Source of the DNA: Endotrypanum monterogeii
Lineage: Eukaryota; Euglenozoa; Kinetoplastea; Trypanosomatida; Trypanosomatidae
DNA: 64,000 bases
Direction of reading: 5' to 3'
Assembly: GCA_000333855.2 (NCBI GenBank)
Contig: CM007317.1
Coordinates: 1,239,071 to 1,303,070 of the forward strand
Shown here in pieces: positions 3,434 to 49,962 of this stretch. Both the position numbers and the translations under genes were made by a program. How positions within the stretch are numbered: the stretch's first letter is position 1; each line of letters opens with the position of its first letter. The notes under the pieces were generated by a model. That model ran no database searches and had not been told where the DNA came from. It saw only the letters and a list, made by a program, of their open reading frames with translations.

Positions 3434-6400
3434 ATGGCTGCCAGTGCGCCAATGGCGGTTCAGGAAAGGCGAGAACTAACTAATCCCCCCCCGCAAGGTC
3501 TGCTGTCCGCGCAAGGCCAGCATGAGCCTGTGCAATTGTCTGGAATTACTGCAGAGCACACATCATCCAGGGAATCGTATCCATCAGACTTCCCCAACTA
3601 TGACGCCAGCGCGCGAAAGGCGACGTATGCGAAGCGTCTGCACCATGGCGAGAAGCACACGAATCCACCATCGAGTGGTGTTCAGTCTGCTGAAATGCCG
3701 CTGCGCGGGGCGGCTGATCCGCAACGGGTGAACCGCAACCTCCCCGATGAGAACCCAATGTATGCTCACTGGATGGGAGATCGATCTCAGTACACCTTCA
3801 ACATTGATCGTGGCACTTTTGCAAACCACGAATACCGTAAAGGCTCCTTCCACGACAGGGCATTATCGGGTCGCATGCCAGGATCGATGATGATGGGTCG
3901 CGCGGGCTCCATGTTCGGTATGGGAGCCCCGCCGATGTCTATATATGGGATGGGCAGCTTGTACGGGGGAGGGTTTTCGCGCCCGGTCTCAGTGCTTGGG
4001 AGTATGTACGGTAGTCAGTATGGGATGGGCTCCATGTACGGGATGGGTGGCCCAATAAACGTTATGGGATCTTTCTACAGCATGGGGATGCCCAGGGGCT
4101 CTATGATGTATCCGATGGGCTTGGCAGGTGGTTCAACTCGCTCAATGTACTCCATGAACGCCGACAGCCAATTCGTTCCTAACGGGTTCGGCAGCGCGTA
4201 TGGGGGAGAAGCGTCTCAGAGCAATCCGGGCAGCATAAAGCAGTACGACGGCAGCAACTACGGCATGTCCGGCATCGGTAACAGCTATGAACCGCAGGTC
4301 GGCTACGGTCCCACTGGTGTGAATGACAAAGGTGAGGCCGTTCAATTAAACGCTGTGTCCCATGAGAATGCCTCGACAGGCGGCCCTGTCGGAGAACAGG
4401 CAAGTCGGTCGAAAGAAGTCGACCCTGCTCCCAAGTCACTGCAGGTGTCCCCTGGGATGAAGTCGAGCAGCGGTACGCATGCCTCAACAGCCGAAGCGAC
4501 CAGTGCTGCGCCTGGAAAGAGCAGCGATCGCAAAAACGACGTGGCGGGCTTGCTGGTTGTTTCCGCTGGCACGAGCCAGGAGGTCCCAGTCGTGTTGCCG
4601 GGCAACCCGCCAGACGGAATGTCTGCGGAGGAGGTTCTCCGCACTGGCCCCGAAGCGCAAGCCACGGCCCTCAGAGTGAAGCGCCACAAATACTGTCGTG
4701 ATTTATACAACAGCGTCAACGGTGGCCACAACGTCGCGTTGCTGATCGCGACTGACGGTACCCCAGAATCTCGCTCCATGGCAGCGGTGGTAGCGACAGA
4801 AGTGCTCGCAGAGGCGCTTTCGGAAGCGGCAGAGGCGGCTGCGCGTAACGGCGAGCTTGGGTACTACGACGCTCAGGTCTCCGCGTGTGCGCTGCCCAGT
4901 GCTACAAAGTTGATCGACTGTGTCAGCAGCAACGATGTCAAGGAAGTCGACGTTGGTTCGCACCCAGTCTTCGGTCCCGCTTTGCTGAACGTTGGCGCCG
5001 TAACAGTGCGCAACACAGTATCTGACATGTCCCAGGCTGGCACGGCCATCGTTGCGGCGTGCGCGAAGACTGATGCCCACGTTGTTGTCGTTGAGGCTAT
5101 TGTTAAACAGGTGCGACCGGCGCAGAGAGGCGACAGTCAGACAGATGTGCTGTTGTCTTCAATTTTATTTCTTATCAGCAACGTTACAAAGGAGCAAGAG
5201 GCTTTTTTCGACTGCTTGCGCAACGAGGCGTACGTCCCACCCGCCCTCGTCAAAGGTTGCATTGGCGGCGCATGCCGTACCGTGGCTGTGCTTTGCCTGC
5301 CTCACTGTACAGATCCGTCCAATGCCCAGGAAGCGCTGGCCTCGCTTCACCGCATCCGCAACACCGCTAACTCGATGCCTCGTAGTGGAAATCTCGCTCG
5401 GTTCATCAGCTTTGCCGCTGGTGAAAACGAAAAGTTGCGCCAGAGGCCAGGGATGGACGCCGCCGTGCTGGAAAAGGTGGATGCGATGCTCTTGGACGGT
5501 CACAATATGCTGGCGGATCCTCGTAACACCCTGCCCGTAGCGTATCCACGAAGTCTGCAGCGCCCTCCTAATTCCATGAATACCCCGCAGCTCTCGTCGC
5601 GCGACCTCAACGCCCACGCCGCAGAGAAAGCGCGCGACGCGTCGAACCCAGTTCGTGTGGCTGTCATTGCAACTCCGCAAGCCAGCAACGATGTTCCACC
5701 GACGTTCAGCATTGGACCCGACGGCAATTCCATCGTAGACAACACTACCGATACGCAGGCGTCTGCGCTAGAGGTGGTAGTGCGCACGCGGGACGATTGG
5801 CGCAACGTGACGCTGGGGCAGGTGAGTGAGGTTCAAACACTGTTTGAGAACGGCAACAACACTGCCATAATTGGCGCTACCTCGCCGAGCGAGTTGAGCA
5901 CATTGAGCAAGCATCCGCTGTGGCTGTCGTACAAGCGCATGGTTTCGTCCCTTCTGAGCGTGGCGACACAGAAATACAAGTCGGCCGAGGTGAGTCTCAG
6001 TGTTACTCTTCTCGGTGGCAACGAGGTACTGGCGGACTTATTGGTAGACATGGAGTCGGAAATACCGACGGTGCAGGCCCCGCGGAAGTTATCTGTAGCG
6101 TACTCTCCACTATTCGGTCCTACAGTGTACAAGGCAACCATAATCAAGCAGCCCACTCCTCTGCAGCTTGAGTCGACGATCAATGCTGCTCTGTACCACG
6201 TGCCGACGATAGCGCAGCAGCACCCTGGCAAAAAAATAGTGATTGTTGCCTCGGCTGTCATGAAGGGGGTGACTGCCACTGACGTCTACACAAGCTCGAT
6301 GCTCGCAGCAAGTGCCATGGACCCGACGTTTTTTATTGATGTCCTAGACAAGAAGCTGGATGTGCCGCATGAGCTCTTTGAATATGCATTCGGTGGTCCC

Positions 6401-7072
6401 TGCTGCACCTTGTTTCTTGCTCACGTTATCCAAGGAGACGCAAACGTAGGGAAACTGGTGGAGTTGATGAATCGACTCAACAACACACAGAACCGCAGCG
6501 TGCGAACGTGTAGCGTGAAGAAATTTATTGCGTTTGCTGAGGAGAGCCTGAGGAGAGCGGCTGACTCGGCAGCAGCAGCTGGATCGTCTGAAGAGAAGGA
6601 GACGATCTTACGCAGCAAGAGGAGCATGGAGGTGTTCTACTTGGAGTACAAAACTCTCATCGAGGATCCCGAACATAATGACCCAAAGACGTACCGCCGA
6701 AGCGGTGGGGGCACTAGCTCCTCCAGCAATGATCGAGTGCCGTCCAACAAAGCTCGTAAAAATGCTAACAAAGGCGTTGAGAAGGGCAACGAGCGCGACA
6801 AGGCTGATGCAGACGCGCGTTCTTCGGGGAGTCACCACAGCTCTGGTCACCGTAACGCCGCGAAGGACTCCGCTACGCGTTCTCACTCTCGCGGCAAGGT
6901 TGATGCAGACGCGCGCTCTTCGGGCAGCCACCACAGCTCTGGTCGCCGTAACGCCGCGAAGGACTCCGCTACGCGTTCTCACTCTCGCGGCAAGTCTGAT
7001 GCGAACGCACGAAATTCCCGGAGTCACCACCGACCGGGTCACCGAGGGTCTTCTGCAGGTGGAAAGGGGTAA
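3434..7072 (+). CDS. Tandem pseudo-kinesin domain protein, Gly/Met/Tyr-rich N terminus
   Basis: This is a 1212-residue protein; the frame opens upstream, but the first ATG is at 3434. Residues about 150-280 are a low-complexity region of repeated Gly-Met-Tyr-Ser units. Two domains follow with the same order of blocks as a kinesin motor. Domain A spans about 415-690: a GGHN strand before the P-loop position (430-433), VFGP (512-515), IGGACRT (610-616) and LARFISF (from 654). Domain B spans about 785-1045: GNNTAII (807-813), LFGP (893-896), FGGPCCT (986-992) and SVKKFIAF (from 1027). Neither has GxxxxGKT/S, the SSRSH switch or DLAGSE, so ATP hydrolysis is not expected. The C terminus has 32-residue Ser/His/Arg repeats. 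It heads a cluster with two similar proteins. I infer a structural microtubule- or flagellum-associated role. The kinesin relation is read by eye, and no gene name is recognised. Confidence 0.85.
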   Translation: MAASAPMAVQERRELTNPPPQGLLSAQGQHEPVQLSGITAEHTSSRESYPSDFPNYDASARKATYAKRLHHGEKHTNPPSSGVQSAEMPLRGAADPQRVNRNLPDENPMYAHWMGDRSQYTFNIDRGTFANHEYRKGSFHDRALSGRMPGSMMMGRAGSMFGMGAPPMSIYGMGSLYGGGFSRPVSVLGSMYGSQYGMGSMYGMGGPINVMGSFYSMGMPRGSMMYPMGLAGGSTRSMYSMNADSQFVPNGFGSAYGGEASQSNPGSIKQYDGSNYGMSGIGNSYEPQVGYGPTGVNDKGEAVQLNAVSHENASTGGPVGEQASRSKEVDPAPKSLQVSPGMKSSSGTHASTAEATSAAPGKSSDRKNDVAGLLVVSAGTSQEVPVVLPGNPPDGMSAEEVLRTGPEAQATALRVKRHKYCRDLYNSVNGGHNVALLIATDGTPESRSMAAVVATEVLAEALSEAAEAAARNGELGYYDAQVSACALPSATKLIDCVSSNDVKEVDVGSHPVFGPALLNVGAVTVRNTVSDMSQAGTAIVAACAKTDAHVVVVEAIVKQVRPAQRGDSQTDVLLSSILFLISNVTKEQEAFFDCLRNEAYVPPALVKGCIGGACRTVAVLCLPHCTDPSNAQEALASLHRIRNTANSMPRSGNLARFISFAAGENEKLRQRPGMDAAVLEKVDAMLLDGHNMLADPRNTLPVAYPRSLQRPPNSMNTPQLSSRDLNAHAAEKARDASNPVRVAVIATPQASNDVPPTFSIGPDGNSIVDNTTDTQASALEVVVRTRDDWRNVTLGQVSEVQTLFENGNNTAIIGATSPSELSTLSKHPLWLSYKRMVSSLLSVATQKYKSAEVSLSVTLLGGNEVLADLLVDMESEIPTVQAPRKLSVAYSPLFGPTVYKATIIKQPTPLQLESTINAALYHVPTIAQQHPGKKIVIVASAVMKGVTATDVYTSSMLAASAMDPTFFIDVLDKKLDVPHELFEYAFGGPCCTLFLAHVIQGDANVGKLVELMNRLNNTQNRSVRTCSVKKFIAFAEESLRRAADSAAAAGSSEEKETILRSKRSMEVFYLEYKTLIEDPEHNDPKTYRRSGGGTSSSSNDRVPSNKARKNANKGVEKGNERDKADADARSSGSHHSSGHRNAAKDSATRSHSRGKVDADARSSGSHHSSGRRNAAKDSATRSHSRGKSDANARNSRSHHRPGHRGSSAGGKG
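6806..7054 (+). repeat. 96-bp tandem repeat in coding sequence
   Basis: Two nearly identical 96-bp units begin at 6806 and 6902, and a diverged third begins at 6998. Each encodes 32 residues starting DADARSSGSHHSSG. The period is a multiple of three, so the frame is preserved. The unit is basic and Ser/His-rich and forms the C-terminal tail of the protein. Confidence 0.9.
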
Positions 7073-12786: not shown

Positions 12787-13776
12787 ATGCAGATGCACAA
12801 CAACATGTATTCGCAGCGGATGGAATGGCTGATGCGTCAGCAACAGCTGCCACAAATGCAGGACAGCCGAAACGCATTCCCGTCACGTGTCTACCACTTG
12901 GAACCGTTGAATGCGAACCCGCAGTTTAGTAATGTGAATGGTGTAATGATGAGTCAGCATGCTGGTGGCGGTGTCATGGGCGGCATGTCGGCATACGGTC
13001 CGGGTCCCGTGAGGGGGAACACGCAGGACGGTTACAGCAGCTTTTTGGAAGCGGGTGTCGGCAATGGGGCTGCCTTGAGTAGTAAAGGCATACACCGCAC
13101 GGGCTCGATGGGGTACGGCAACGCTGGAGTGGGTGGTCCGAACGGTGCGCCAAACGGCATAGGCGCCTCTCTTTCTGCCGGCACGGCTTGGCACAGTGCT
13201 GATCGGAGCAACGTCAATTTTCAGGAAGTGTTTAACGCCGCGGCCAACCCGCTCACGCAATATTCTGTAGCGTTGCAGGACGACGGAGAGCCACTGCTAT
13301 TCCCCCCTGGAAAGATTCTTGCGCAGTATCCGACTGAATATCAACAACAGCTCGTATTCTACTACCGACTCCTGCGCCTGCAGTACCCGCAGTTGTATCA
13401 GCAGTACGTTGACTACTACTACAAATACTATGAGCCACTCTACTACCCCCCAAACCCACCAGCACCCGTCAAAGAGGAGGTCCCCGTAAAGCCTTCGAGG
13501 AGGCCGCCACCACCGAAACCAAAGGAACCGCGAGCGGAGACACTGCCGCCGCCGCCCGTCATCTCGCCGCCCGTGTACACGTTACCGCCGCCGTCACAGC
13601 CGCCACCAGAGTTACCACCACCGACAGAAAGCTTGCCCCGAACTGCATCCACCCTCAGTGGAGGACTTAAGCGTCAGAGTTCTTTGCGGCGTCAGAATTC
13701 GATACGCCGAAACGAGGTGAACCAACTGAAGAACGAAGGCGGTCTAAGGCGTCTTCCGAGCATGCGAAAGGAATAG
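12787..13776 (+). CDS. Tyr-rich / Pro-rich low-complexity protein
   Basis: This is a 329-residue protein. The ATG at 12787 is the first in a frame that opens upstream at a GTG. Residues 1-160 are Gly/Met/Asn/Ser-rich, like the N termini of the flanking paralog-like genes. Residues 163-226 form a striking conserved-looking segment packed with Tyr and Gln, including QYVDYYYKYYEPLYYPP. Residues about 227-300 are polyproline with PPPP runs, and about 301-329 form a basic tail with repeated RxxS sites (RQSS, RRQNS, RRLPS). No catalytic domain is visible. Position inside the pseudo-kinesin cluster and the shared N-terminal style suggest a partner or structural component of the same assembly. That is inference; I do not recognise the gene. 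Confidence 0.8.
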   Translation: MQMHNNMYSQRMEWLMRQQQLPQMQDSRNAFPSRVYHLEPLNANPQFSNVNGVMMSQHAGGGVMGGMSAYGPGPVRGNTQDGYSSFLEAGVGNGAALSSKGIHRTGSMGYGNAGVGGPNGAPNGIGASLSAGTAWHSADRSNVNFQEVFNAAANPLTQYSVALQDDGEPLLFPPGKILAQYPTEYQQQLVFYYRLLRLQYPQLYQQYVDYYYKYYEPLYYPPNPPAPVKEEVPVKPSRRPPPPKPKEPRAETLPPPPVISPPVYTLPPPSQPPPELPPPTESLPRTASTLSGGLKRQSSLRRQNSIRRNEVNQLKNEGGLRRLPSMRKE

Positions 13777-17508: not shown

Positions 17509-20500
17509 ATGGGGCGACGAAAGGCCGTGGCGCGGGAAGAAAAAGGGAGAAGGCGTCTCCCTAGTGTGTGCAGAACGCAGTCCTCGAAAATAGACGAGCT
17601 CGAGAGATTTGATGGAAAGGATTCCCGCCAGCAAGTATCCTGTGGTGTTGATGGCGGCCTTTCCTCCCGAAAATGTTCTATCCGCGTGGGAGGCGGAAAC
17701 CTCGCTCGCCTGCAGAGTAGCAACAACTTCATTCAAGACCGGCCTGAGAATAGTTCCTCTTTCCGTCACCCCCCTCATCCACTGGAAGGGCCCAACCCGG
17801 GGACCTGCCACGGCTTCGCTTCTCGTGCACCAATGCACCAGTCGATGCAGGCAGTCCTGCCTCAGCATCTGCCACCAGCGCAGCAGATGAACCACATTCT
17901 CCCGCAACAGCAGTCCTTCTCCCAGGCATCGCTGCCAGTGCAGTGTCGTCAACAGGGCCAAAAAGGTCCCTTTCCCACACACTCACTAAATTTTAGCAAC
18001 GGTGCGGCCAGTGACGGTGGCGGCTCTCTTGTTGTACCAAGCACGGACCCGATACAGGTTTATCAGCCTACAGGGAACCCCTTGCTGGTGGGCCCCCAGC
18101 GTCAAATATGCCTCCCTGTGGGCGACGCGACACAGGAGAATCATTACCAGACTGAGGATTGGAACGCGTTTCCTTCGCGCACTCACATAGGCCACATGAA
18201 TGGAATCCAGCCGGCACTGAATGCCCATCAACAAGCTCTCCCTGTCAGTGCTGGGGGTCTTCAATCAATGCAGCAGCAGGAGCCAGCTTATCCCCCTCTA
18301 CCACCGCTCCCTTTCGTAATGACGCCTCAAGGTCCGATGGCGCCGCAGCCTCTGTTTTTGTTCAACATGCAAGGGTTTTCGATGTTGAGTGGAGTGATGC
18401 CGCAGCGCCGGCGGTCCCTCAATCCACAACTTCCAGTTCAGCCACCCGAAACTAGTCAATTCGTAGCACCGCAGATGATGCCCCTTATGAACGGCAGTGC
18501 CATACCCGCACGTCCACTGATGCCACAGGATGCGCAGAGGCGAAGTGAGCATGATCAGGTACCAGTGGAATCACCACCGCCGGCGCTTACAAGGCGGCCG
18601 TCTTTCGTTGCAGCGGGAGATGCTTCCTCTCATTTGACTGGTGCAGCTGCGGCCTCGGTGAATGCTAATGCCCAAACGTCGAATGGTGGCCCCGTTCCTC
18701 TGCTTCGCACACAGAGCATTCTGAGTCACACCTCGAGTTTCAAGAAAAAAAAGTCGGATCTGGGCGCCGCTCCTCGAACCGATGACACACAATCCGTTCC
18801 GCAGCCAAGTATTCTTAATCGTGTTTCAAGCTTTAAGAAGGTATCGCAACCGGTGTCCGGTGCCGCGCCCCCAACAGAGGTCAAGATGGAAGAAAGGCTC
18901 CAAGCACGAGAGCAGGAGCGGTTGCGATTGCATCAGGAAATGAATGCCCGTGCAGCTGCTATCAAAGCTGAGCGGGAAAAGCGGCTGGCTGAGTTGAAGC
19001 AGCAGCGGACGCTTCGCACCCTCACACCAGATCCACTGGTAAGCGCCACTCCGCGTGTGCTTACCGAGCGCACCCAAAAAGTGTGCACTGGTGGTAATGG
19101 CGGCTTGCAGATTCCTGGAGGGCACTCATGTAGGCCTTCGTTGCCACCACAAAAGCTGTCCAATCTAGAAAGTTTGCCCTTGAAGGAGATACTCCTTCGC
19201 GACTCTCCTCCATCTCAGACTGCAATGAGGCATCAACTACCGTTCATGGCAAATGGTCCGCGTACAACACAGGAGAATCGCCTCAACTCGCCAATCCCCA
19301 ACGCGTCCTGCTTTGTGGATGCGATTCATTCTCAAGTCACTCAAACGGCAGCTGTCTCGGATCGGGGACCAGCTGCTACGATGGCAACGAGTGGCGTCGG
19401 TGCCGGAATAACCACAGGTGTAGCTGGTGAGGAGGTCTCGGGCATATCTATGGAAGCAGCGCACAAAAAGATTTGGCATCGTTCCCTTTCTCTTGTTCTC
19501 TACGAGATTCCCCTGCGGTGCTCCAAAAGGGTCATTTCCAATGGCATGGAGCAGATCGATGACTCGTCGTATCCTGTTCGAATATTTGGAAACGCGCTAC
19601 GCATCACTGACGCGGCGGGCCAAAGGATCCAGGAATATCAAATTGATGAGCTCGTCATGCATCGGCGGGGATCGATGAATGCAGAGTCCATGCTCTTCCA
19701 GAAGCTCACCGAGGTGGTCATTGCTGGCTACAGTGCTTCCGTGCTGAGTCTAGATGCTAAGAGTCTTACCGAATCGATTTCTGCATTTGAAAGCGCTGCA
19801 TGGCTGGCGAAACGTCGGCTGCTCATGAACGTGGTGACCACCGCGAAACAGATGCAGTCGATGTACGAGAGAGAGGGTGTGGGTACTCGTTATTTCCAGG
19901 CAGCATTTTCCTTTGCTCTCGTGAAAAAGATGTCCTCCGGTAGAGTGGGGGGAGGGAATAGTTCGAGCGCAACTAATGCGCAGATGGCGTATGAGGTGTT
20001 GGACCTGCTTCACTCTGAGCCAACTGGGGTTCCACTCAAAATGCAGAGGAGTCTTTTGTTTGGCCAACGCATAGCCGATGTCGAATACCGTACCCTCCAC
20101 ACTGAGGAGGAGTTCGTGAAAGCTCTGATGACTGCGCAAGCCAGTGCCAACATCGTGCTTGGTCGCCTCGCCGACGCCGTTGCCAGAGACCCCCAAAACG
20201 AAGAAGCGGCAAGCGAACGGGCGTCGGTGTTTCAGGTGGTGACGTGTGTGCTGACGCACCGCAAGTCAGGTGCCGTCTCTCTTCAAGAGCAGATGGAAGA
20301 GTCTGCCGGTGATTTCTATAGGAGAAAGATGGAGGGGGACGTTTCATTTTCAGATGAGGAGGACGAGGTACACTCCTCCACAACTTTTCGGTCACGCAAC
20401 AAGCCATCCCGCAACAGCGACATTATTTTGAACTGCCTCACCTGTATTGGCGCTCAGCAGAATCATCACCTGTGGTCCGCAGCACTGGAGCGTGACAGTT

Positions 20501-20856
20501 CTACGGTACCGGTCGAGCTCATGGACAGCGTGCTTGGTGGCCCGACGTACACGTTAATGGTTGCGAGCATCGACCCCTCCAGGGACGATGCGGCCGCGGC
20601 GCTCAATACGCAGTCGGCCTTGAGTGAAAAGTTCTACCGCCGGCCGCTCAATGGCTCTGTGAGCCGTCTTCTCCAAACAACCAAATACAAGACAGGGGCT
20701 TCGCGAGAAAGGCTCCAAGCCACCGCTTCCCTATCCGCTGTGCAACAAGAAGACCTGAAAGGGAGCATTCGAGAGAATAACATGATATTAGAGTCGCTGC
20801 GTAAGGTCATCGGCTCCTTTGAAGCACACGACCTCAGCGTTTCAGGCGCTGCCTAG
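17509..20856 (+). CDS. Pseudo-kinesin domain protein, Gln/Pro-rich N terminus
   Basis: This is a 1115-residue protein. The ATG at 17509 follows a good acceptor; an internal ATG at 17833 begins MHQSMQ, much like the start of the neighbours, and is an alternative. Residues about 110-420 are Gln/Pro/Met-rich and disordered. A repeated motif ending SSFKK occurs twice, in HTSSFKK and RVSSFKK. A charged coiled coil spans about 459-505. The C-terminal domain at about 653-1070 follows kinesin motor order: GYSASVLSLD (740-749) at the strand before the P-loop, LLFGQ (849-853), LGGPTYT (1009-1015) and SVSRLL (1050-1055). The P-loop, SSRSH and DLAGSE motifs are absent, and this copy also carries inserts. 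It is the most divergent of the four domain copies. I infer a non-motile scaffold derived from a kinesin. Confidence 0.85.
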   Translation: MGRRKAVAREEKGRRRLPSVCRTQSSKIDELERFDGKDSRQQVSCGVDGGLSSRKCSIRVGGGNLARLQSSNNFIQDRPENSSSFRHPPHPLEGPNPGTCHGFASRAPMHQSMQAVLPQHLPPAQQMNHILPQQQSFSQASLPVQCRQQGQKGPFPTHSLNFSNGAASDGGGSLVVPSTDPIQVYQPTGNPLLVGPQRQICLPVGDATQENHYQTEDWNAFPSRTHIGHMNGIQPALNAHQQALPVSAGGLQSMQQQEPAYPPLPPLPFVMTPQGPMAPQPLFLFNMQGFSMLSGVMPQRRRSLNPQLPVQPPETSQFVAPQMMPLMNGSAIPARPLMPQDAQRRSEHDQVPVESPPPALTRRPSFVAAGDASSHLTGAAAASVNANAQTSNGGPVPLLRTQSILSHTSSFKKKKSDLGAAPRTDDTQSVPQPSILNRVSSFKKVSQPVSGAAPPTEVKMEERLQAREQERLRLHQEMNARAAAIKAEREKRLAELKQQRTLRTLTPDPLVSATPRVLTERTQKVCTGGNGGLQIPGGHSCRPSLPPQKLSNLESLPLKEILLRDSPPSQTAMRHQLPFMANGPRTTQENRLNSPIPNASCFVDAIHSQVTQTAAVSDRGPAATMATSGVGAGITTGVAGEEVSGISMEAAHKKIWHRSLSLVLYEIPLRCSKRVISNGMEQIDDSSYPVRIFGNALRITDAAGQRIQEYQIDELVMHRRGSMNAESMLFQKLTEVVIAGYSASVLSLDAKSLTESISAFESAAWLAKRRLLMNVVTTAKQMQSMYEREGVGTRYFQAAFSFALVKKMSSGRVGGGNSSSATNAQMAYEVLDLLHSEPTGVPLKMQRSLLFGQRIADVEYRTLHTEEEFVKALMTAQASANIVLGRLADAVARDPQNEEAASERASVFQVVTCVLTHRKSGAVSLQEQMEESAGDFYRRKMEGDVSFSDEEDEVHSSTTFRSRNKPSRNSDIILNCLTCIGAQQNHHLWSAALERDSSTVPVELMDSVLGGPTYTLMVASIDPSRDDAAAALNTQSALSEKFYRRPLNGSVSRLLQTTKYKTGASRERLQATASLSAVQQEDLKGSIRENNMILESLRKVIGSFEAHDLSVSGAA

Positions 20857-21038
20857 TACCCCACCTCCACCGCCAGCCAAACCAACCCCCTTCCTTTCTT
20901 CTCTCTTATTCATATGCGACGTACAGAGAGCAGGACCTGCGAGCTAGTTACGAAAGGGAACTAAGCAAAGGCCTCATATGAGCTGGTGAAAGAACCGCTT
21001 AGTGCGTCTGAATAGACGCAGCGACACACTCGCATGAC

Positions 21039-21043
<5 letters not shown>

Positions 21044-21071
<28 letters not shown>
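21044..21071. repeat. (TA)n microsatellite
   Basis: This tract of about 28 bp lies about 190 bp past the stop of the preceding gene, probably in its 3' UTR. Confidence 0.85.
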
Positions 21072-22393
21072 TCGTTTTTGCTATATATTCTCTAAAGATT
21101 CTATCTACGCCACTGTGCATTTGTATGGAAATCTGGAAGCCCTCAAAGACGCACTTGAAAAACTCAAGAAACATATCCATCCGTATGTATACATTGCTTC
21201 CGATACATGTACATGCCTCTATTGTATGTTCGTATTTCTCATGGCTCGGTGTGTCATCTGGTTTTGGTATCAAAATGAGTAGTTTTGTTTTCTCTGTTGA
21301 GTGCTTTTCGCAAAGGTTAAGGTCGCCGGCTGGTATGCACACTTGGTGAGTGTGGCAGAAGCAGATTTCATGTGCGCCCTGGATGGGTTTAACCCTGCCT
21401 CCGCCCAATCTTATAGACACGTTTGCGATGTTTTTGTGTAGATTTCATGAAGGAGCGGGTTGAGAGCGCTATCTGCGTGTGTTTGTGTTTCCAGAAAGGG
21501 TCTCTGATTTCTCCCGCTTGGCGGTTTTTCTGCCTGCGCGTGCTATTGGGTGTATTTCCACTTGAAAACTTTCTTATTTGCTCGGCTCCTTATAAAATAA
21601 CAAAACAAAAACAGAGTGGAGGTAGAGCAGTGTCACCAAATGACATTGGGATGTCTGCATCGACTTCACCTGTCATCGTGTCCTCATCTATGTGAACATC
21701 ATCTGCTGGTAACTGATTTGCATAGGTTCAGGTCGGTTAGCGCTGGTGCGTGCTTGAGAACATCTGCATGCCTCCTCTATTTGTTTATTTTTCTTCGAAT
21801 ATGTGTACTTCTGCCGCTACCGCTACAAGTGTCAACTGACAGCGACGGCGAAGAGACGATTCTGCCGGGAACGCACGTTTTTCTGAGTTTGTGGACGTGC
21901 TCACTTCCTTTTTAGTGGTATTGTTCAACTCTAGGCGCTGGTCTCGCTAATTATTTGTGCCCTCATTGTTGATATTATTATTAGTACTTCTGCCCCCCCT
22001 TTTTTTTTAGTGGCAGGGGGGGGGGTAAGAGGTGAAGAGGGGAATGCATGTGTATACATACTGTTTGCTGATTCGATTCTGTTTGTGTACGGGTGCATAT
22101 GGCACTCCGCTCTTTTTCATGGAAGCATAAAGCCTTCTCATTTCCTAGCTTATTGGAACCCTGATGCACCCATGTGTAGCAGTGTTTTTTGGAGGGGTGT
22201 GGGAAGGAGGAGAAGGGGAGTGGTGGGTGTCACTGTTCATAGTGCTTCTACGCGGTCTCGTACCCCAGAGACTATTCTCTTTTTTTATGTGAAGGCTGTT
22301 GTTTTTATTTTCCCCTTATGACTTTTTCTTTTCTGTCATTCTCATGACGTACCTACCCCCCTCATCCCTCTCGCACCCTCCGGCACACACGCC

Positions 22394-22394
<1 letters not shown>

Positions 22395-22419
<25 letters not shown>
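22395..22419. repeat. (TA)n microsatellite
   Basis: A tract of about 25 bp in mid-spacer. Confidence 0.85.
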
Positions 22420-22424
<5 letters not shown>

Positions 22425-23419
22425 CGCTTACTATCGATTACGCATTGCTCTTGTCGTCATGTTCTCTTCTGTTTTTACTTACGTGCAGGCACATATAGGT
22501 CCAACGCGACGGCGCGGGCATTGTATTCCCCGCTGGGTCTTCCCTTTCATGTTTTTTTTATTTTTATTTTTGCAGTGCTGATGCTTTTAGCTTTAGCGTT
22601 CTCACAGTCCGGATGGCTTCACTCATCGCTGCTTACCCCTGACTCCCGACTTCTCCCTCCTTGGGAACCTCTGCTTCATTCCATCTTTTTTTTTTACTTT
22701 CTCCCCCGCGCGCTGACAGGTTAGTGCCCTAGTTCACTGCCTTTGCATCTATGTTTCACATGCTGTGATGATCGACTTGTATTGGGTATGGAGGAGCGAA
22801 TATATGAGTGTGTACTGTTTTTGTCAGTTGCCGAATCACAGGACATTGGCTCTGTGGAAACATTGTACAAACAACAGTTTTCAGTATGTCTTCACCCTGT
22901 CCTCCCTACTCATTTTAATTGTTTTTTTTTTTGCATGATTGTCTTTTCTTTGTACTATTCTTTATCCCTGTCTGCTGGTGTGTCGACACGTTTACATGTA
23001 TTTATATATATATAGAGAGAGAGATCGTTTACATGTGAATTTGTTTTCTCTCTTGTGGGAAGGGAGGGGGGCGTCCGTAGATTTTTTTTTCGAGGAGTGT
23101 TCCCCTTCTTTCCCTCATACAATCAATATCTCCATTTTGTGCCTCTCTACCTGCTGACCTTCTTTGACTTTTCTGCCTTTGTCAGGTGTTGGGCATCATA
23201 GGCGTACCAAAAAGAAGCAGCACACGAAGCGTATATTAGATATTGATGCTCATGTCTCTGCGTCTACACCTTTTCGCGCAGGCGCTTCGCCGGGTCTGCT
23301 TCTTAAGGGAAGGTGCTCAGTATGGCGTGTGTGCATGTATTCTCTCGTAACCGGTGTGTCTACTGCTCTATTCACTGCACCTTCCCCTTTCCTTCTCTTG
23401 AGCGATATGTATATGTATG

Positions 23420-23444
23420 TATATATATATATATATATATATAT
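23420..23444. repeat. (TA)n microsatellite
   Basis: A tract of about 25 bp in the spacer before the 24815 gene. Confidence 0.85.
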
Positions 23445-23787
23445 TTGATCTTTGCTTTATTTTGACACGTTCGCCATCATGGCATATTTTCACCAGTCCC
23501 CCCTATGGTCACCTCATCGCTCCAGGGTGCTGAGAAAGAGTGAGGCGGAGATACGCCATCGAAGATGACGATGTGAAAATCAGCAGAAAAGAGAAGCGCC
23601 ACTTCCCTAAAGTACACACAATCATACGCGAGCACTTCTCAGCAATTTTCTGCATCAAGACGACTTGTATCTTTTTTCTTTGAGGAGGGAGGGGGGGGGA
23701 AAAACTGCTTCTATTACCGGCGCTTATATCCTCCCTGACGGGCGTTCGAGTTTCGAAGCACACACGCAAAGACACACACACACACCC

Positions 23788-23815
<28 letters not shown>
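23788..23815. repeat. (TA)n microsatellite
   Basis: A tract of about 28 bp joined to (CA)n on its left and (GT)n on its right, so the whole locus is purine-pyrimidine alternating. Confidence 0.85.
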
Positions 23816-23820
<5 letters not shown>

Positions 23821-24584
23821 CGTGTGTGTATTAATTTATTTTGAATCGTATACATGTTTACGTTCATGTGTGTATGTGAGTTAGGAGAGCTGCCTCCCAA
23901 CACTGCAAAAGAAAAAATTGCAACTGTCCACCTCAGCTCTGATGTGGGTATTGCTGGATAGACAATCGTCACTGTTGAAGAAGACTGTTGGTCTATTGCG
24001 ACGCCCTATTCCCCCTCCACCCCATTTCGGCCCTGGGTGTGTGCGATGCGGAGAACAGCAGCGCTTTTCATGGCCTGCTGCTCCCTTGTCGTCTCCCTGT
24101 GTCAAGCAGCCTGACTCTGCGCACGCGTGAAATGAATAATTCTTCTTCACGATGAACTGTTTTTTACCGTTCTCTTCCGCATTTATCCTTTTGCCCTATG
24201 CTCGTTGCTTCATCCATTTACATGCCTTTGTTACTCTTCACCTGCATTGCTTCGCTGCCACAACAACTTCCCCCTCTTCGTTTCCCACCTCCTCGCCTTC
24301 GTCCATGGGCCAGTTAGCGGCCCTCCAACGAGCGTTTCATTGAATATTCGTTTTTTTCTCTTTCGTAGTGTTCTACACAGGCCGGTCAAGGCATTGGGCT
24401 CATCTACACTCTCGCGTCCATCCCTCCATCCCTTCACACCCTTCCACACGTATTCATTCATTTTTGTTTTCCAGCGTTCGAACCATCAGCTTATCAGCCG
24501 CTCCGTCGTCCTTTGCACTCCTGTGTTTGACCGTTTTTTTTTTTTTGCGTTCGTGACCGAGCTTCTGAGTTCTTTGTGTGCTCG

Positions 24585-24591
24585 CTTTCAG
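24585..24591 (+). promoter_or_regulatory. Candidate splice acceptor for the 24815 gene
   Basis: A T-run at 24534-24546 leads to ctttcag with AG at 24590-24591. Using it would place a C-run, a CA tract and a TA tract inside the 5' UTR. A later T-run at 24661-24676 with AG near 24702 is an alternative. Confidence 0.4.
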
Positions 24592-24761
24592 TGGTGATTT
24601 CTCGTACATTGATCCAACGCGGACTTTCTCTCGCGTTTCCTCCTCCTTCCCTCCGTCTTACTTTTTTTTTTTTTTTGAAAAATCCTCCTTTTTAATTGAA
24701 CGAGCAACCGAGGTACAGCACTCGCACGCGTCTGTACCAAGCCCCCCCCCCCCCCTCCTCT

Positions 24762-24762
24762 C

Positions 24763-24801
<39 letters not shown>
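24762..24801. repeat. (CA)n-(TA)n tract immediately before a start codon
   Basis: A (CA)7-type tract passes directly into a TA tract of about 27 bp that ends some 14 bp before the ATG at 24815. It therefore probably lies in the 5' UTR. Confidence 0.85.
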
Positions 24802-24805
<4 letters not shown>

Positions 24806-24814
24806 GTACATCAC

Positions 24815-27800
24815 ATGTATCAACAGCAGCCACAGGGTGCGTCATATGGGTTCCATGGGGCCACCAAACTGAATAGGCCAGGCGCCGGCACTGGTTTTGA
24901 TGCCGGCTCCATGAACGCCAGCATGGGAAGTGCTGCCTACGGGGGTGGTTACACTGGCTATGCTGCGTGGGGCGGTGGTAGCAACTACGGCCAATCCGGT
25001 TTGGGGTCGATGATGGGGGGCATGCAGGAGGAGATAGTCGTCACAAAGCTCTTTTCTAGCCGTCGAGACCTTGACCGCCTCGCTTCATCGCAGGATTTTT
25101 CACGCCGGTTCAACTCCAACTGGGGAAGTTATCTATTCGCAGGTGCAGATGGCTATGGAGGCTCGCTCTACGGCGTGAATAGTGCGGCTGGCGGCTCCCT
25201 TATCAATTCAGGTGGAGGGGCGGACACTTCATTCTTTGGGAACCAGAGAACAGGTGCCGCTGGTATTGGCCCGAACGACCACGAGGACCCGGGCATTGAC
25301 AGCGCCAAGGAAAACGGTATAAACAGCGACAAAGACGGTGCTGGCGCCGCCGGCAAGAAGCAGGCAACAAAGACGATGGTTACTCAACCAAAAAAGACAG
25401 CGGGAGGGAAGGATGATGCGGGGCGTGAAATTCCCTCTCGTGACTCACAGCTTAATGGCGTAGTCAATTCCATCGCGCCTAAGTTATCTGACGATCGAAA
25501 GCAGGATGTGGTGAAAGATGGAAGCCTCAGGAACCGCAGCGAAAAGGGGCAACCAACGACTGGCCAATCTGCGAGCCAAACAAACAAAAGCACTGAACGC
25601 AGCGATGGTTCTGGGAGTAGGGTCGACAGTGGCACTTCTAGGAATTCACAGCCAGCGATCGAAGAGATACCGCTACTGGCGGGTGTGGAAGGTCGCAGCA
25701 AGGAGGCCCCCAATGCAACAAGTCAAACTGCCACTGTGAGAATCGAGAACGGATCCGGCGCACCGAAAACACACTCGCGCACGGCCGAACCTATTGACGA
25801 CATTCCGCTCCTCGCTGAAGATGTGCGGCCGCTGCAGGCGTCAGCCGCGCCTACGACAGAGTTGCACAAACCGACGGAGCTGCCCGCGGGGGATGAATCG
25901 ATGCAGTCCAAGTCACTCAATTCAGTGACACAAGCTGAGATGCCCAAGGAAGCAGCAAAGGCCAGTCAAGCCGTGAATCGCACCTCACCCACCAACCCAA
26001 CGAAGAGGTCTAGTGGCAACGGGGAGTCTCGCCAATCTCGTCCACGTAGTCGCCAGCCAGTGCGCCCCACCAGCCGCCTCTCTTCCACGGGCGTTGTGGA
26101 GTTTCCCGAGGCGCAGAAGATGCCAGACGACCTGGTCAACGATGATCTCAGCTACTCTGAGAAACGCACATCCATCAACGCTAAGCAGGCTCGGGGCCCC
26201 GAGGACGCTGTGGGCGTTGAGCGCCAACGTCCTCTTAAAGCGATTGAGGAAGCGCAGAAGAGGCGCGAAGAAGAAGCGCAGATGCGGCGGAAGGAGAGAG
26301 AGAGCGAACAACAACAGCGAAAAGAGTTGCTAGCGAAGCTGGACGAGGAGCGCAAGCGCGAGCGGGACGCTGCCGTCGCTGAACGCGAGCGTCAGCGCGA
26401 GGAAGAAAAGCTCCGTTTCGAGGAGATGAAGCGCACAAACGATGAGAGAGAGGCCACGCGTATTAGCACCGTGATAGCCGAACGCCAGCGGCCTCGTCAA
26501 GCGCAGGGGGGAGAGGCACAGGGAAAGCAGTCTCGCAGCGTTTCGCGTCAGCGCAACCGCCGTCCTCCTAGTCGCCCCGCCTCAACGCTGCGCGGTGCAA
26601 TCCCTGAACAGCCTCCTGAACTGGTGGCCGGACAAATACAAGATACGCTGGCGTCGGATACACTCGTGACACATCCGCAATACCACAACGAGGCTCACCA
26701 CCCTCACTCTGAAGAAGAGACGCAGCGCACAGTTGGGTCGCTGCCTGAGGTGAACCGTACGACTCACTCCTCGTTTGCACCGGGGGCACAACACGCAGCT
26801 ATATCAAATGTCACCCAACCGCCCCCGTCACAGGCAGCAGTCGTGTCGCGGGCCCACCGTGTCACGCCCGCGACTCCACTCTCGCAAAGCTCGAGGAACA
26901 CGCGTCCCTCTCGTCCAAATGAGCATAAAGCTGAGAGCACAACGGCGAGAAACAGTCTGAAGCCGTCTGCAAACATGGTGAAGACGTTGGTTCTTGTAGA
27001 GGAGATCCGTGAAGGCAATCATGCCCTGACTCTTGGAGACCAATCGGTAAGCTACAAGGATCATACTATAGGTGTGACAGAGGTGAAGACTCGTCCAGAG
27101 GGCAATTTTAATTATCAGTCCAGTGTCGTCCACGACGTCGGCGATGCGGTGTGCAACGGTTACAACGCTGCAGTACTCGCGATCGATGCCCCGAATACAG
27201 CAGGTCGCTTCGAATCCCCTGTGTGGTCTATACTGAACCGTATCATCCGCAGACTACTGCAGGAGAACAGCAACAGCTCCGGTGAACTGCGCGCTGACTT
27301 TGAACTGACCTGCGCCTTTGGCTATCTCCACAAAGACAAGGTGAAGGATTTGCTTACAGCCTCTGACACTGAAGCCCCGTTCACGAAGGTTAGCGTAAAT
27401 CCCTCCCCTATCTACGGACCACGGCTGACAAATCTCACCTACGACACCGTCACAGACCCTTCGGTTTTCGAAGATGTTCTCACCTCCACTCTTTCACGCG
27501 CCTCAGAGGATGCAACGCTCAATAATCTGACGGAGGGTGTCTTGGCAGCCTTCGTGCTGATCATGCAGACACGCGAGACGGATGGCAAGTCGGATGTTTA
27601 CCTTTCGTCGCTTGTGGTGGCCACATCCGGCGAGGACACGTTTCCATACCAGTCCGCGATTTCGCACACCCGGAATGAGTACGCAACGGTGTTTCACCTG
27701 GTTCTAGGTGGTCCAAGCTGCACTTGCTTTATGTTGAATATCGCTGACGATGATGCGGCCCGCGGGGGAGGTGATTCTGGTGAGGAGTCTTTGCAGGAGA

Positions 27801-28039
27801 AGATCGTGCGGTTGCTGACGCTGCTGCAGGACATGACTACACTTCAGAACTATGATTTGCGCAGCGGCTCTGTGAAGCGTTTCATCAAATACGTGGAGTT
27901 ATCGCACACCAACGCGCTAGCGAGGCTCGAGAAAGAGCAGGATGAGGCACAGCGCCGAAAGGTGGAGCGGTACCTCCGTGAGCAGGAGCGACTTTTGCAG
28001 GATGCCTATCGTCTACTCCAGGGGGCGAGCATCAAATGA
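24815..28039 (+). CDS. Pseudo-kinesin domain protein, coiled coil plus C-terminal dead motor
   Basis: This is a 1074-residue protein; the first ATG is at 24815, just after a TA tract. Residues 1-130 are Gly/Tyr/Ser-rich. Residues about 130-470 are polar and disordered and contain two similar acidic motifs, EEIPLLA (283-289) and DDIPLLA (about 328-334). A highly charged Glu/Arg/Gln coiled coil spans about 474-565. The C-terminal domain at about 720-1030 has nearly the length of a kinesin motor and is the clearest copy: GYNAAVLAID (782-791) stands where kinesins have GYN-x-T-I-F-A-Y-G-Q-T, then SPIYGP (864-869), a DVYLSSLVV strand at the DLAGSE position, LGGPSCT (964-970; kinesins have LGGNSKT) and SVKRFIKY (from 1019). 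The P-loop is replaced by DAPNTAGR, so nucleotide hydrolysis is unlikely. I infer a structural microtubule-associated role. Confidence 0.87.
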   Translation: MYQQQPQGASYGFHGATKLNRPGAGTGFDAGSMNASMGSAAYGGGYTGYAAWGGGSNYGQSGLGSMMGGMQEEIVVTKLFSSRRDLDRLASSQDFSRRFNSNWGSYLFAGADGYGGSLYGVNSAAGGSLINSGGGADTSFFGNQRTGAAGIGPNDHEDPGIDSAKENGINSDKDGAGAAGKKQATKTMVTQPKKTAGGKDDAGREIPSRDSQLNGVVNSIAPKLSDDRKQDVVKDGSLRNRSEKGQPTTGQSASQTNKSTERSDGSGSRVDSGTSRNSQPAIEEIPLLAGVEGRSKEAPNATSQTATVRIENGSGAPKTHSRTAEPIDDIPLLAEDVRPLQASAAPTTELHKPTELPAGDESMQSKSLNSVTQAEMPKEAAKASQAVNRTSPTNPTKRSSGNGESRQSRPRSRQPVRPTSRLSSTGVVEFPEAQKMPDDLVNDDLSYSEKRTSINAKQARGPEDAVGVERQRPLKAIEEAQKRREEEAQMRRKERESEQQQRKELLAKLDEERKRERDAAVAERERQREEEKLRFEEMKRTNDEREATRISTVIAERQRPRQAQGGEAQGKQSRSVSRQRNRRPPSRPASTLRGAIPEQPPELVAGQIQDTLASDTLVTHPQYHNEAHHPHSEEETQRTVGSLPEVNRTTHSSFAPGAQHAAISNVTQPPPSQAAVVSRAHRVTPATPLSQSSRNTRPSRPNEHKAESTTARNSLKPSANMVKTLVLVEEIREGNHALTLGDQSVSYKDHTIGVTEVKTRPEGNFNYQSSVVHDVGDAVCNGYNAAVLAIDAPNTAGRFESPVWSILNRIIRRLLQENSNSSGELRADFELTCAFGYLHKDKVKDLLTASDTEAPFTKVSVNPSPIYGPRLTNLTYDTVTDPSVFEDVLTSTLSRASEDATLNNLTEGVLAAFVLIMQTRETDGKSDVYLSSLVVATSGEDTFPYQSAISHTRNEYATVFHLVLGGPSCTCFMLNIADDDAARGGGDSGEESLQEKIVRLLTLLQDMTTLQNYDLRSGSVKRFIKYVELSHTNALARLEKEQDEAQRRKVERYLREQERLLQDAYRLLQGASIK

Positions 28040-33614: not shown

Positions 33615-36176
33615 ATGCACGGCTCGCAAGACACCTCGCGGCATTTGAATGGCGGCGTACATCATGTAACAAACTTGCAAGCGTCTCTCAACTCGGATTT
33701 GAATGACAATCAGTCTGCTGCTCTATCAAGGGGGACCTCATACCTCAGGTCTGCTCTCACGAGTGACGACAACGTCTCATCGAACTCGTCCTCCACCTTC
33801 TTCCACGATTACTGGGGCATGTTTCATGGCGCTGGGTCAATGCCTTCATGTGATGTGGAGAGCGAAGAAGAATTTGGGGAGTTCGATGAGCTCGTACGCA
33901 GCGGTTGCTTCGCACCCACGCAGCAGATTGATGCCCACCTTCCCCTATCTACCAGTGGCTTATCGACAGTTTTTTTGGCCGATGTGGATATGCCTAGCGG
34001 CTCGAGCGTTGAGTGGTATTCGGTCTACGATCAGAAAAAGGCGAGCCGCTCCAAGGGCAGCTGTTACTCCTTGATTCCATCGGTGCCCAGGAGGGACTTC
34101 TTGTCTACGCCGAGGATGGATATATCCTTTCTGGCGCCTTTTGTCGAACCCCTCTATAGTGAGCCCATTGCACCTTCAGAGGGGCTGCCGAGCAACTCGA
34201 TTGAACGTGAGGGCAGAAAGGAGAGCGCCAGTCGGCTTCGCATGGCAAGGCCCCATCGCTCACTTTTATTTTCGCAGCTGTCTTCAACAAAGGAGTTCGG
34301 TACATATCCCGGAGGAGAGTTCTCGCTTTGTTTCAAAAACCATACTTCCGACGACACGCAGGGCAGCCCTTTGGCATCAACACCGCTCAAGAAGCGGTTG
34401 TATCCGGCAGCACGCGCGGAGCTGGGAGAGATGCTGAAGCGCTGCTGGTACTCGCACCAGTCCAACTACAACAATGACTCTATCCCTGGTGACACGATGG
34501 GTTTGTGGTTTTATGGCATGGAAGAGGAGGCCGAGGAGGAGGAGTGTATCGTATCAAGGCGGTCGTCAGGCAAAGATATGAACGACAGTGCCCCACCCGT
34601 CGGTGCGAATGCTCACCTGTCTTCTCCACAAGCGATGTCCCGGGTATCTAGAGAAGCACATCCTGGCGCTCGGCGTGATGAATGGGTGAGTGCGATGGTG
34701 ACTAGAGGTAGCCACTCGCCCAGAAAATTTGAAGGTATCCACACTACCGACAGGTTGACACACAGTTCTTCCTTTTTTCGTCCTCGTAAATTCAGTAGTG
34801 GGAGTCGGCCCCTCGAATCCCTCAACGCAGGAGAAAGAATCTTCTCCAAAGCTGCTTTCCGTGTCCTACGTGGTAACTTTGACAACGACGACGCCAGCCT
34901 TGACAGTCGCATTTTGGATGCTTCCAGCAATTACGAAGGCGGCTCGAATAGCGGGAAGCTGAGGTGTTCGTCCTCTCGGCGGTCGTCTTCCCTGAGTCAT
35001 GGGCTTACATCAGGTAGTGTAGCTGGTAGGCTGAGGGGAAGCATCATAATGACGGGTGGCAGAGGCAACTCCTTGAACCCCCTTGCCGACGCCTCAGCGC
35101 GTCTTGAACAACCTGGACACGCCACGGCCAATATCATGAATAGACCTTCCCGAGGAAGATCGAGGGATCTTCCGCCTGCCGTCGGGTCACCTCCCTTCGG
35201 GCGAGTCCAGGATTTACGTTCTTCTATCTCGCATTCAGCGATGATCCTTAGGTGGCGACTGCTGAGTTTCCGCGATCTAGATGACACGCCGCTAACGAAT
35301 TACGAACAAGTTCCACACAGCGACGCAGCGAAACGAAGGAAAAAGAAAGGAAAGGATACGAGAAAGAGCAAGAGGAACGCAAGGCACCACAGGTCGCGCG
35401 ATGCTGCTCAGTGTGATGGTAGAGGCGAAGGTGCGACTTCAGGCGAGCACGGTGATGGGGCTCAGAAGGACAGCAACCTGCACGGGGGTGCAACACGAGT
35501 GTTCCAGGAAAGAGGCAAAGAGGGTTCACCTGTTGAGGTTTCTCAGCCGCAAGAAGGCGACAAGAAAAGTAATGGGTCTACTCACAAGAAAGGAGATGTC
35601 CATGAGTCCCTTCCGCACAACCTGGGAACACAACAGCAGTCTTCAATACGAGATGCGACTGACGTCGCCACCGGAACGGGGATGCGGCGGCCAAAGTCAA
35701 CGATATCGAGTCGTATTCCCTCTACATTTCCCGATAACTGTTCCCGTCGTCTATCGGGCATCACAGCAGGAGACAGATCGGCGAAATCGGGGGAAAATAT
35801 TCAGAGCTTCCCGGTGGCAGGCCCTGGCCATCTGCAGACCTCGAGTGCCGTGAGTAGGGAGTCACAACCACCTCACTCTTTTCAAGGTGAGAAGGGATTG
35901 CCGCTAATGAGCCCCTCAGCCACAGCGCGGCACGTCACTGTACACCGAAACACGCGAAGGATCAGTAAAACCTATGACCGCAAAGTTAGTGGAACTGGGC
36001 TGAAGGATATTAGTTGTCGGCAACTTTGCCCAGGGCCTCCCTCAGGGGCTCAACACTCTAGACCGATGCCACCCTACCGTCTTCCAAGAAGCCTGTACAG
36101 CGGCACGGACTCTCACCACACTGAAGCAACGCCGCAGATGTCAAGTCGCCAAACAGACCGGCTGCCGCAACTTTAG
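33615..36176 (+). CDS. Ser-rich disordered protein of unknown function
   Basis: This is an 853-residue protein; the ATG at 33615 follows a purine-rich leader. I do not recognise any family. Visible parts: an acidic aromatic stretch in the N-terminal quarter (the SEEEFGEFDELV region), a more ordered-looking segment at about 272-312 with LKRCWYSHQSNYNND followed by an acidic EEEAEEEE patch, many RSS/SRR clusters, and a strongly basic run at about 571-600 (KRRKKKGKDTRKSKR) that resembles a nuclear localisation or RNA/microtubule-binding patch. The rest is polar and low in hydrophobics. There is no signal peptide or membrane segment. Codon composition is steady throughout, which together with the length argues it is real. 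Confidence 0.8.
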   Translation: MHGSQDTSRHLNGGVHHVTNLQASLNSDLNDNQSAALSRGTSYLRSALTSDDNVSSNSSSTFFHDYWGMFHGAGSMPSCDVESEEEFGEFDELVRSGCFAPTQQIDAHLPLSTSGLSTVFLADVDMPSGSSVEWYSVYDQKKASRSKGSCYSLIPSVPRRDFLSTPRMDISFLAPFVEPLYSEPIAPSEGLPSNSIEREGRKESASRLRMARPHRSLLFSQLSSTKEFGTYPGGEFSLCFKNHTSDDTQGSPLASTPLKKRLYPAARAELGEMLKRCWYSHQSNYNNDSIPGDTMGLWFYGMEEEAEEEECIVSRRSSGKDMNDSAPPVGANAHLSSPQAMSRVSREAHPGARRDEWVSAMVTRGSHSPRKFEGIHTTDRLTHSSSFFRPRKFSSGSRPLESLNAGERIFSKAAFRVLRGNFDNDDASLDSRILDASSNYEGGSNSGKLRCSSSRRSSSLSHGLTSGSVAGRLRGSIIMTGGRGNSLNPLADASARLEQPGHATANIMNRPSRGRSRDLPPAVGSPPFGRVQDLRSSISHSAMILRWRLLSFRDLDDTPLTNYEQVPHSDAAKRRKKKGKDTRKSKRNARHHRSRDAAQCDGRGEGATSGEHGDGAQKDSNLHGGATRVFQERGKEGSPVEVSQPQEGDKKSNGSTHKKGDVHESLPHNLGTQQQSSIRDATDVATGTGMRRPKSTISSRIPSTFPDNCSRRLSGITAGDRSAKSGENIQSFPVAGPGHLQTSSAVSRESQPPHSFQGEKGLPLMSPSATARHVTVHRNTRRISKTYDRKVSGTGLKDISCRQLCPGPPSGAQHSRPMPPYRLPRSLYSGTDSHHTEATPQMSSRQTDRLPQL

Positions 36177-45770: not shown

Positions 45771-45824
45771 CCTCTTTTTTTTTTTTGATATTTTTGCCCT
45801 TTTGTTTTTTTGTATCCTGTGTAG
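45771..45824 (+). promoter_or_regulatory. Splice acceptor for the 45946 gene
   Basis: A long T tract over 45763-45815 ends in gtgtag with AG at 45823-45824, giving a 5' UTR of about 120 nt. Confidence 0.5.
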
Positions 45825-45945
45825 ATCTTCTATTCTCAGAGATCCCGTGTTGTTTCCCCTTGGGTGGGGTATCGCTACCATCTTTGCGCCACTTGTCCGC
45901 AACTTTTGCCACTCTTTGTGCGGATTCATCTCTCAAGCTACGGTG

Positions 45946-49080: not shown

Positions 49081-49962
49081 AAATATCGCCCTCCGCGGTA
49101 GTGGCCGTCGAATCCATTCGGCGGCCCGGTGCCCAAACGACTGTACGAGTCTCGTGATCTTGGGGCGTGTGTCGGGGCAGCTGCCAAATCCCTCCTCACC
49201 GCCCTAAAAAAAAAATGAATAATGTGCACATGACTGTGGACAACAACACCAAAAAGCGTTTTAGATTCAACTGCGACTTTGTTTTCGGCTGTCACACATG
49301 CCACAGTTTTTCTTTTATCATTTCGGACCCTTTGAGATCGTTACTCCTCAGGGTAAAAATATCTGCGGTAGCGTTTGCAGACCGCCTGTCGGACGGGGGA
49401 TAAAAAAATATTGCAGATGGGAAAACGTATGCACTGCTCCTGACTTGTGCGTCGTTTTCTTCATCCTCTTCCTGGCCCGCTCTGTGCATACTGTTTTCAC
49501 TGCTCCACACCCACTGACCGCATCTACCCATTCGCTTTCTTTCCATGATCGTCAAGCATAACATCTGTTGCCATCTGCGATGGGCAAGTGTACGCCAAAG
49601 AACCGCGGTGAGCACATCAGTGGTTCCCCGAAAGGTGAATGGGCAAGGAATGATGGCATTGCGCGACTTAATGGAATTGCATTGAACTATGCTGAATCGA
49701 AAAATAGTGATCTACAAAGCCTTACGGTGAGCAGTGGATCACGAAGGGGATAACACGAACCCTGCTCCGCGCAAACTGACACACATGAAGGACGCCTTTT
49801 CTTCTTCAAAAAAAAAAACGTCTCATATATATTTTTCACATCATTTCTTCTTCCCTTTCTTTGTATTTTCTCCATCTCATATCGGGGGGAAAAAAAACTA
49901 CCCTAGCGCTTAAGCTGTTGCGATTACTGAGGATAGACGGATGCGTTCTTGAGGTGCTGCAC
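49081..49962. other. 0.9 kb spacer
   Basis: This is the shortest spacer in the window. It has an A-run near 49206, a short minus-strand-compatible region of no coding character, and a strong pyrimidine tract at 49846-49880 serving the next gene. No gene is supported. Confidence 0.65.
49846..49906 (+). promoter_or_regulatory. Splice acceptor for the 49963 gene
   Basis: A tract of T and C at 49846-49880 is followed, after a G/A run, by ccctag with AG at 49905-49906. This leaves a 5' UTR of about 56 nt before the ATG at 49963 and argues against the open frame's TTG start at 49861. Confidence 0.5.

Follow-up and report, generated by a model that had tools for sequence, protein, structure and literature searches.

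What use does a cell have for kinesin motor domains that no longer carry the motifs of a motor? The question is raised by a 64,000-nucleotide stretch of the Endotrypanum monterogeii genome (C33:1239071-1303070, forward strand; here the window), in which three clustered genes encode four kinesin-like domain copies. Positions below are those of the window unless prefixed C33 or C17. We found that the copies belong to a larger family that, by sequence profile, descends from kinesins and has no full catalytic motif. This family is very probably the published Adhesion Related NTPase-like Domain (ARND) family, and we consider it likely that the four pseudo-kinesin domains are not motors but building blocks of the plaque by which the flagellum adheres to the gut of the insect.

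Kinesin descent of domains without catalytic motifs

All three genes lie on the plus strand. The first (3434..7072; 1212 amino acids [aa] from its ATG) carries two copies, one at 4556..5626 (GHN, VFGP, DVLLSS, and IGGA; recognized by profile matches) and one at 5636..6733 (kinesin fold predicted). The second (17509..20856; 1115 aa) has a single, highly diverged copy with long insertions (19456..20853; GYS, LFGQ, DIILNC, and LGGP), and the third (24815..28039; 1074 aa) has a single copy with a predicted kinesin fold (26954..28036). Copy limits were placed by hand from the profile matches. The landmarks of the 24815 gene are as follows: GYN at the P-loop approach (27158..27166), with no GxxxxGK[ST] downstream; SPIYGP (27404..27421), an instance of the family-specific SP(L/I/V)(F/Y)G; DVYLSS (27593..27610), the start of strand beta7, which in kinesins leads into switch II; LGGP (27704..27715), the counterpart of kinesin LGGN; and SVKRFI (27869..27886), the first part of a helix behind the alpha6 equivalent.

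A first-pass annotation of the window had described these blocks as common to all four copies. This holds for (L/I/V)(F/Y)G(P/Q) and (I/L/F)GG(P/A)xxT, which occur in all four, and only in part for the others. The G-Y/H-N/S block is present in three copies (GYN, GHN, and GYS; the second 3434 copy has GNN), D-V-Y-x-S-S is exact in two (DVYLSS and DVYTSS), close in the first 3434 copy (DVLLSS), and degenerate in the 17509 copy (DIILNC), and S-V-K-R-F-I is exact in one (the remainder being SVKKFI, NLARFI, and SVSRLL). Two placements also had to be revised. The DVxxSS block had been put at switch II but marks where beta7 begins, and the switch II position comes a few residues further on. SVKRFI had been equated with the TLRFA helix of kinesins but lies behind the alpha6 equivalent in the profile alignment to PDB sequences, where its helix aligned to the stretch behind the KIF13B neck.

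The family as a whole comprises 20 domain copies in 10 genes, collected by a genome search with the domains, ORF (open reading frame) reading, and a four-profile scan. The four copies initially noticed were correctly recognized but are only 4 of these 20; 15 others lie upstream on C33 and one on C17. For comparison we used kinesins of the same genome (28 loci of 61 PF00225 matches, from which 27 domain pieces were kept). None of the 20 copies has Walker A (GxxxxGK[ST]; 26 of 27 kinesins), an SSRSH-like pattern ([ST]S[RE].H; 26 of 27), or a DLAGSE-like pattern (D.AG[SNT]E; 25 of 27), which confirms the loss of catalytic motifs noted at first pass. A stray SSR and a stray D[LIMF][ASG]G were each seen in one copy. 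GYN is retained in varied form, with a variable stretch in the place of the P-loop. In loose form, SP(L/I/V)(F/Y)G occurs in 20/20 copies and 1/27 kinesins, and SVKRFI in 16/20 and 0/27. LGG[NSTAP]-like motifs are found in both sets (10/20 copies and 13/27 kinesins).

Kinesin kinship was recovered by profile comparison. The 20-copy profile matched the 27 kinesins with an HHalign probability of 97.8 (E 1.2e-12; reversed control, 0.3; best of 20 column shuffles, 0.56), and against 177,635 PDB sequences, it gave a kinesin match at an E value of 2.4e-14. Many of the top PDB rows listed were kinesin-3, with kinesin-8 and KIF4 rows intermixed. The 17509 family in turn matched the other 19 copies with a probability of 99.5 (E 3e-22; reversed control, 0.4). 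The ORFs called at first pass are present, the blocks they share go beyond chance, and the view of a kinesin-descended pseudo-motor domain behind a long N-terminal tail is borne out at the profile level.

Predicted structures agree with the profiles. A kinesin was the best structural match both for the 24815 copy and for the second 3434 copy; in the tandem model of the 3434 protein, VIA-align rows span the second domain only. A kinesin fold is therefore predicted for these two copies, and the models have a short helical stretch behind the domain. The first-pass annotation had named a missing kinesin fold, or a profile match to another family, as grounds for rejection; these checks, run for the family and, by structure, for two of the four copies, did not overturn its reading.

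The copies are shortened at one place. In kinesins, L11, alpha4, and L12 sit between the SS of beta7 and LGG. From SS to the LGG equivalent, all 20 copies have 30 to 34 residues (alignment columns), compared with 54 to 84 residues from the end of DLAGSE, a later start point, to GG in the 11 same-genome kinesins with a clean motif. (Of the 27 kinesins, 17 gave values, as 7 did not match the stricter switch II pattern and 3 lacked a GG; six of the 17 [42 five times and 49 once] were discarded because the pattern had caught FRGS or FRNS before the true motif.) The segment of the copies is accordingly at least 20 residues shorter, or about 30 by an estimated offset. A single 7-residue helix precedes the alpha5 equivalent in the models, confidently in the 3434 tandem model and with a pLDDT (predicted local distance difference test) value below 50 in the 24815 model. 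Because the segment is short and only this helix is modeled, the face by which kinesins usually bind microtubules has probably been lost.

The gene array and the ARND family

Nine of the 10 genes form an array at C33:1178782-1267109, all on the same strand. Those upstream of the window start at C33:1178782 (three copies), 1188088 (three), 1198114 (four), 1215995 (three), 1222339 (one), and 1229805 (one), followed by the 3434 (two), 17509 (one), and 24815 (one) genes; the tenth gene, at C17:441954, lies outside the array and has one copy. In a domain tree of the 20 copies and four kinesins (4 of 21 inner branches starred), copies from different proteins tend to cluster according to whether they come first, in the middle, or last, except that the opening copy of the 1178782 gene stands apart from the other first copies. 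Most position classes fall under the usual support cut. There is modest support in this grouping for a history in which duplication along the chromosome multiplied a protein of about three copies, some of the genes losing copies afterwards.

A family of this kind has been described in Leishmania mexicana as ARND (PNAS, 20 July 2026; PMC13416946). It has 11 members (ten LmxM.32 numbers plus LmxM.17.1030), collected by iterative BLASTP at 1e-5, each with one or more NTPase-like domains whose best Foldseek match is kinesin and in which Walker A is not conserved (PMC13416946). Predicted coiled coils and intrinsic disorder are further traits of ARND (PMC13416946). In both families, the array sits on the corresponding chromosome and a further gene on chromosome 17, and both have NTPase-like domains with kinesin as the best structural match and a lost Walker A. 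Here we take L. mexicana chromosome 32 to be chromosome 33 of other species. Since array, chromosome, member number, and domain are alike, the 20-copy family is very probably ARND. By gene order, the 3434 gene is perhaps LmxM.32.2980, the 24815 gene LmxM.32.3010, and a small ORF at 12787 LmxM.32.2990.

The family itself is thus already published. The ARND paper, in the text available, speaks of a p-loop NTPase-like domain, draws a comparison with septins, and tests only Walker A (PMC13416946). Our analysis adds a kinesin ancestry based on sequence, the loss of both switches and of the greater part of the alpha4 segment, the domain-position classes, and one member beneath the BLASTP cut-off.

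A cryptic member and neighboring genes

That member is the 17509 gene. At a BLASTP threshold of 1e-5, 9 of the 10 genes were mutually linked with low-complexity filtering off; switching the filter on left a single pair of the nine short of the threshold in one direction (0.002). The 17509 gene had no link to the nine others at this threshold (best, 0.003). Its L. mexicana homologue (P0036) behaved alike against the two other L. mexicana members compared, matching P0028 at an E value of 2.0 and P0012 not at all. LmxM.32.3000, to which the 17509 gene perhaps corresponds by gene order, goes unmentioned in the main ARND text (PMC13416946). We infer from the profiles that the gene is a cryptic ARND member, below the authors' BLASTP cut-off and joining the family at the profile level. 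Decay into a pseudogene is improbable, as its motor-like region is kept at 49 to 58% in eight relatives. Homologues of the 3434 gene were found in Leishmania and Strigomonas, and the nearest protein found to the 24815 product comes from Porcisia hertigi (85% over the domain and 66% over the whole length), followed by Leishmania species.

The domain copies stand behind long N-terminal tails, several of which hold GSMYG repeats (up to 13); their low complexity was judged by eye and from GSMYG counts. The 3434 gene has a G/S/M/Y-rich stretch of this type at approximately 3880..4210 (plus strand). The N-terminal halves encoded at C33:1198114, 1188088, and 1229805 contain GSMYGMGG(NPM) repeats, with 8, 8, and 13 GSMYG units, and the last protein has KDAKEAD repeats too. 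GSMYG-rich halves are possible self-association tails. Two small domain-free ORFs lie amid the family genes, at 12787..13776 (plus strand; 329 aa) and C33:1208970-1209977 (335 aa). By eye, both are rich in Gly, Tyr, Met, Gln, or Pro, and in BLAST they matched neither each other nor the family.

Further along the window, the ORFs at 33615-36176 (853 aa) and 45802-49080 (1092 aa) look Ser rich by eye and have no Pfam match. The ORF at 49861-54309 ends in an ATP-binding cassette (ABC) transporter ATPase domain (Pfam E value, 3.8e-10), and 55393-57432 is a tyrosyl-DNA phosphodiesterase gene (Pfam E value, 1.1e-59). Elsewhere in the genome, locus L048 (C6:140500-143500; a 705-aa frame) has a weak Kinesin match (E values of 1e-4 and 5e-4), below the cut-off. 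It may encode another inactive kinesin and, as a guess, the counterpart of the trypanosome protein KIN-B, discussed below.

Proposed function of the domains

Among ARND members, KIAP4 (LmxM.32.2940) is located in the flagellar adhesion plaque, adjoining the substrate, and its null mutants do not colonize the sand fly valve (PMC13416946). Seven of the 11 L. mexicana members localize strongly to the adhered flagellum, three tagged Trypanosoma congolense paralogues are found there too, and the authors suggest in general terms a role as binding modules (PMC13416946). We favor such a role because the fold is kept while motor and track functions are lost, the copies are repeated, and published members are in the adhered flagellum. 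The kinesin fold would be retained as a rigid binding module, with motor chemistry and track contact gone, and the dead heads would contact each other or plaque proteins such as KIAP3. With two to four copies per chain in some proteins, several such proteins could co-assemble in the plaque under the flagellar membrane, and the long low-complexity tails, some of them GSMYG rich, would add flexible multivalence. KIAP3 (in the plaque) and KIAP2 (in the plaque filaments) share the adhered flagellum and are likewise built on a catalytically dead enzyme domain, but a calpain-like one (PMC13416946). A more specific version, in which a kinesin lost its P-loop, switches, and track-binding helix, an ancestral three-brick protein was copied along the chromosome, GSMYG-tailed arrays self-assemble the plaque, and the 17509 protein is an overlooked component of it, is tentative and on balance doubtful.

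Several observations weigh against the plaque reading. In the published work, two ARND members gave a weak signal and one was undetected, none of the Crithidia fasciculata paralogues was upregulated upon adhesion, the Trypanosoma brucei paralogue POMP22B is mitochondrial, and the authors allow that some members may lack a role in adhesion (PMC13416946). The identity with ARND is our own deduction from the array, chromosome number, member count, kinesin match, and Walker A loss, as the gene mapping is from gene order, and the counts differ: 10 genes here versus 11 published, 9 versus 10 on the array chromosome (8 without the 17509 gene), and up to two published members without a counterpart in the gene-order mapping. 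Binding between domains is itself a proposal. Confidence in the models is moderate (mean pLDDT, 63.4 and 65.9; predicted template-modeling score, 0.66 and 0.46), residues 221 to 273 of the 24815 model, behind beta7, have pLDDT values below 50, and the first 3434 copy and the 17509 copy appear kinesin-like from profile evidence only. Taken singly, the window families reached HHalign probabilities to kinesins of 85.6 (24815), 67.3 (second 3434 copy), 24.7 (first 3434 copy; E 8e-4), and 11.4 (17509), and PDB searches with the full-length profiles of the three families, one at a time, yielded no kinesin, their best rows being low complexity or chance.

These faint single scores speak for the alternative that the likeness to kinesin is convergent and that the domains come from another fold class. 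Pfam found no match in the three single window proteins, and none of the 61 matches listed in a whole-genome PF00225 search (30.7 Mb; 44 contigs) fell within the array. Member by member, Pfam Kinesin was found in 0/16 proteins of the 24815 family, 0/7 of the 3434 family, and 3/9 of the 17509 family (weak; best E value, 0.06); among the domain copies, it was found in 8/20 (best, 6.8e-4). A phmmer match of the 24815 protein to KIF4 (E value, 0.011) is a hint only; matches of the 3434 protein to histamine receptors (E values of 0.2 and above) were judged to be chance. Against convergence stand the family-profile match to PDB kinesins, the matching folds obtained from two separate alignments, and clean controls, and we find it very hard to credit. 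The ARND authors speculate that KIAP4 acts like a septin, the proteins polymerizing to filaments that shape the flagellar membrane (PMC13416946). Tandem copies and low-complexity tails would suit polymerization, which is compatible with a kinesin-type fold, so a septin-like polymer would fit in effect. It clashes in ancestry, however: sequence and structure point to kinesin, and no septin was among the best 60 PDB rows or the best 50 Foldseek rows listed. We regard the septin-like explanation as unlikely, though worth keeping in mind.

Pseudo-motors might still bind microtubules without ATP, much as the first-pass annotation had supposed, in which case they could connect the axoneme or the subpellicular array with the plaque or with other structures. 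Vik1 offers a precedent, and the predicted kinesin fold would permit it. Such binding seems rather improbable given the shortened SS-GG segment in all 20 copies, the lone 7-residue helix of the models, and the position of KIAP4 beside the substrate; the word microtubule occurs 0 times in the main text of the ARND paper (PMC13416946). We give still less credence to non-catalytic partners of active kinesins that tune transport, as KIN-B does with KIN-A. That precedent comes from the same group: KIN-B, of the trypanosome chromosomal passenger complex, is a predicted dead kinesin that has lost the P-loop, switch I, switch II, and many alpha4-L12 residues (PMC10987093). However, KIN-B acts in mitosis and carries its single head at the N terminus, with coiled coils behind it through which it pairs with KIN-A (PMC10987093), whereas the domains here lie behind a long tail, with a short helical stretch after them and up to four copies per chain. 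Vik1 and Cik1 are kinesin heads with absent or doubtful motor activity and other tasks. Neither they nor KIF26A or Cos2 are known to form gene arrays or multidomain chains. KIF26A (PMC10585591) and Cos2 (PMC2867816) are alike in having kinesin heads with absent or doubtful motor activity and other tasks.

If plaque building blocks are indeed what these domains are, a motor domain has been reused some 20 times as a brick, which would be an extreme example of shape being the reason why an enzyme fold is retained. Given the kinesin origin and the lost track-binding segment, experiments would be better aimed at domain-domain contacts than at nucleotide or microtubule binding. The 17509 gene would then be a concrete candidate for a component of the plaque that anchors the parasites in their insect vectors.
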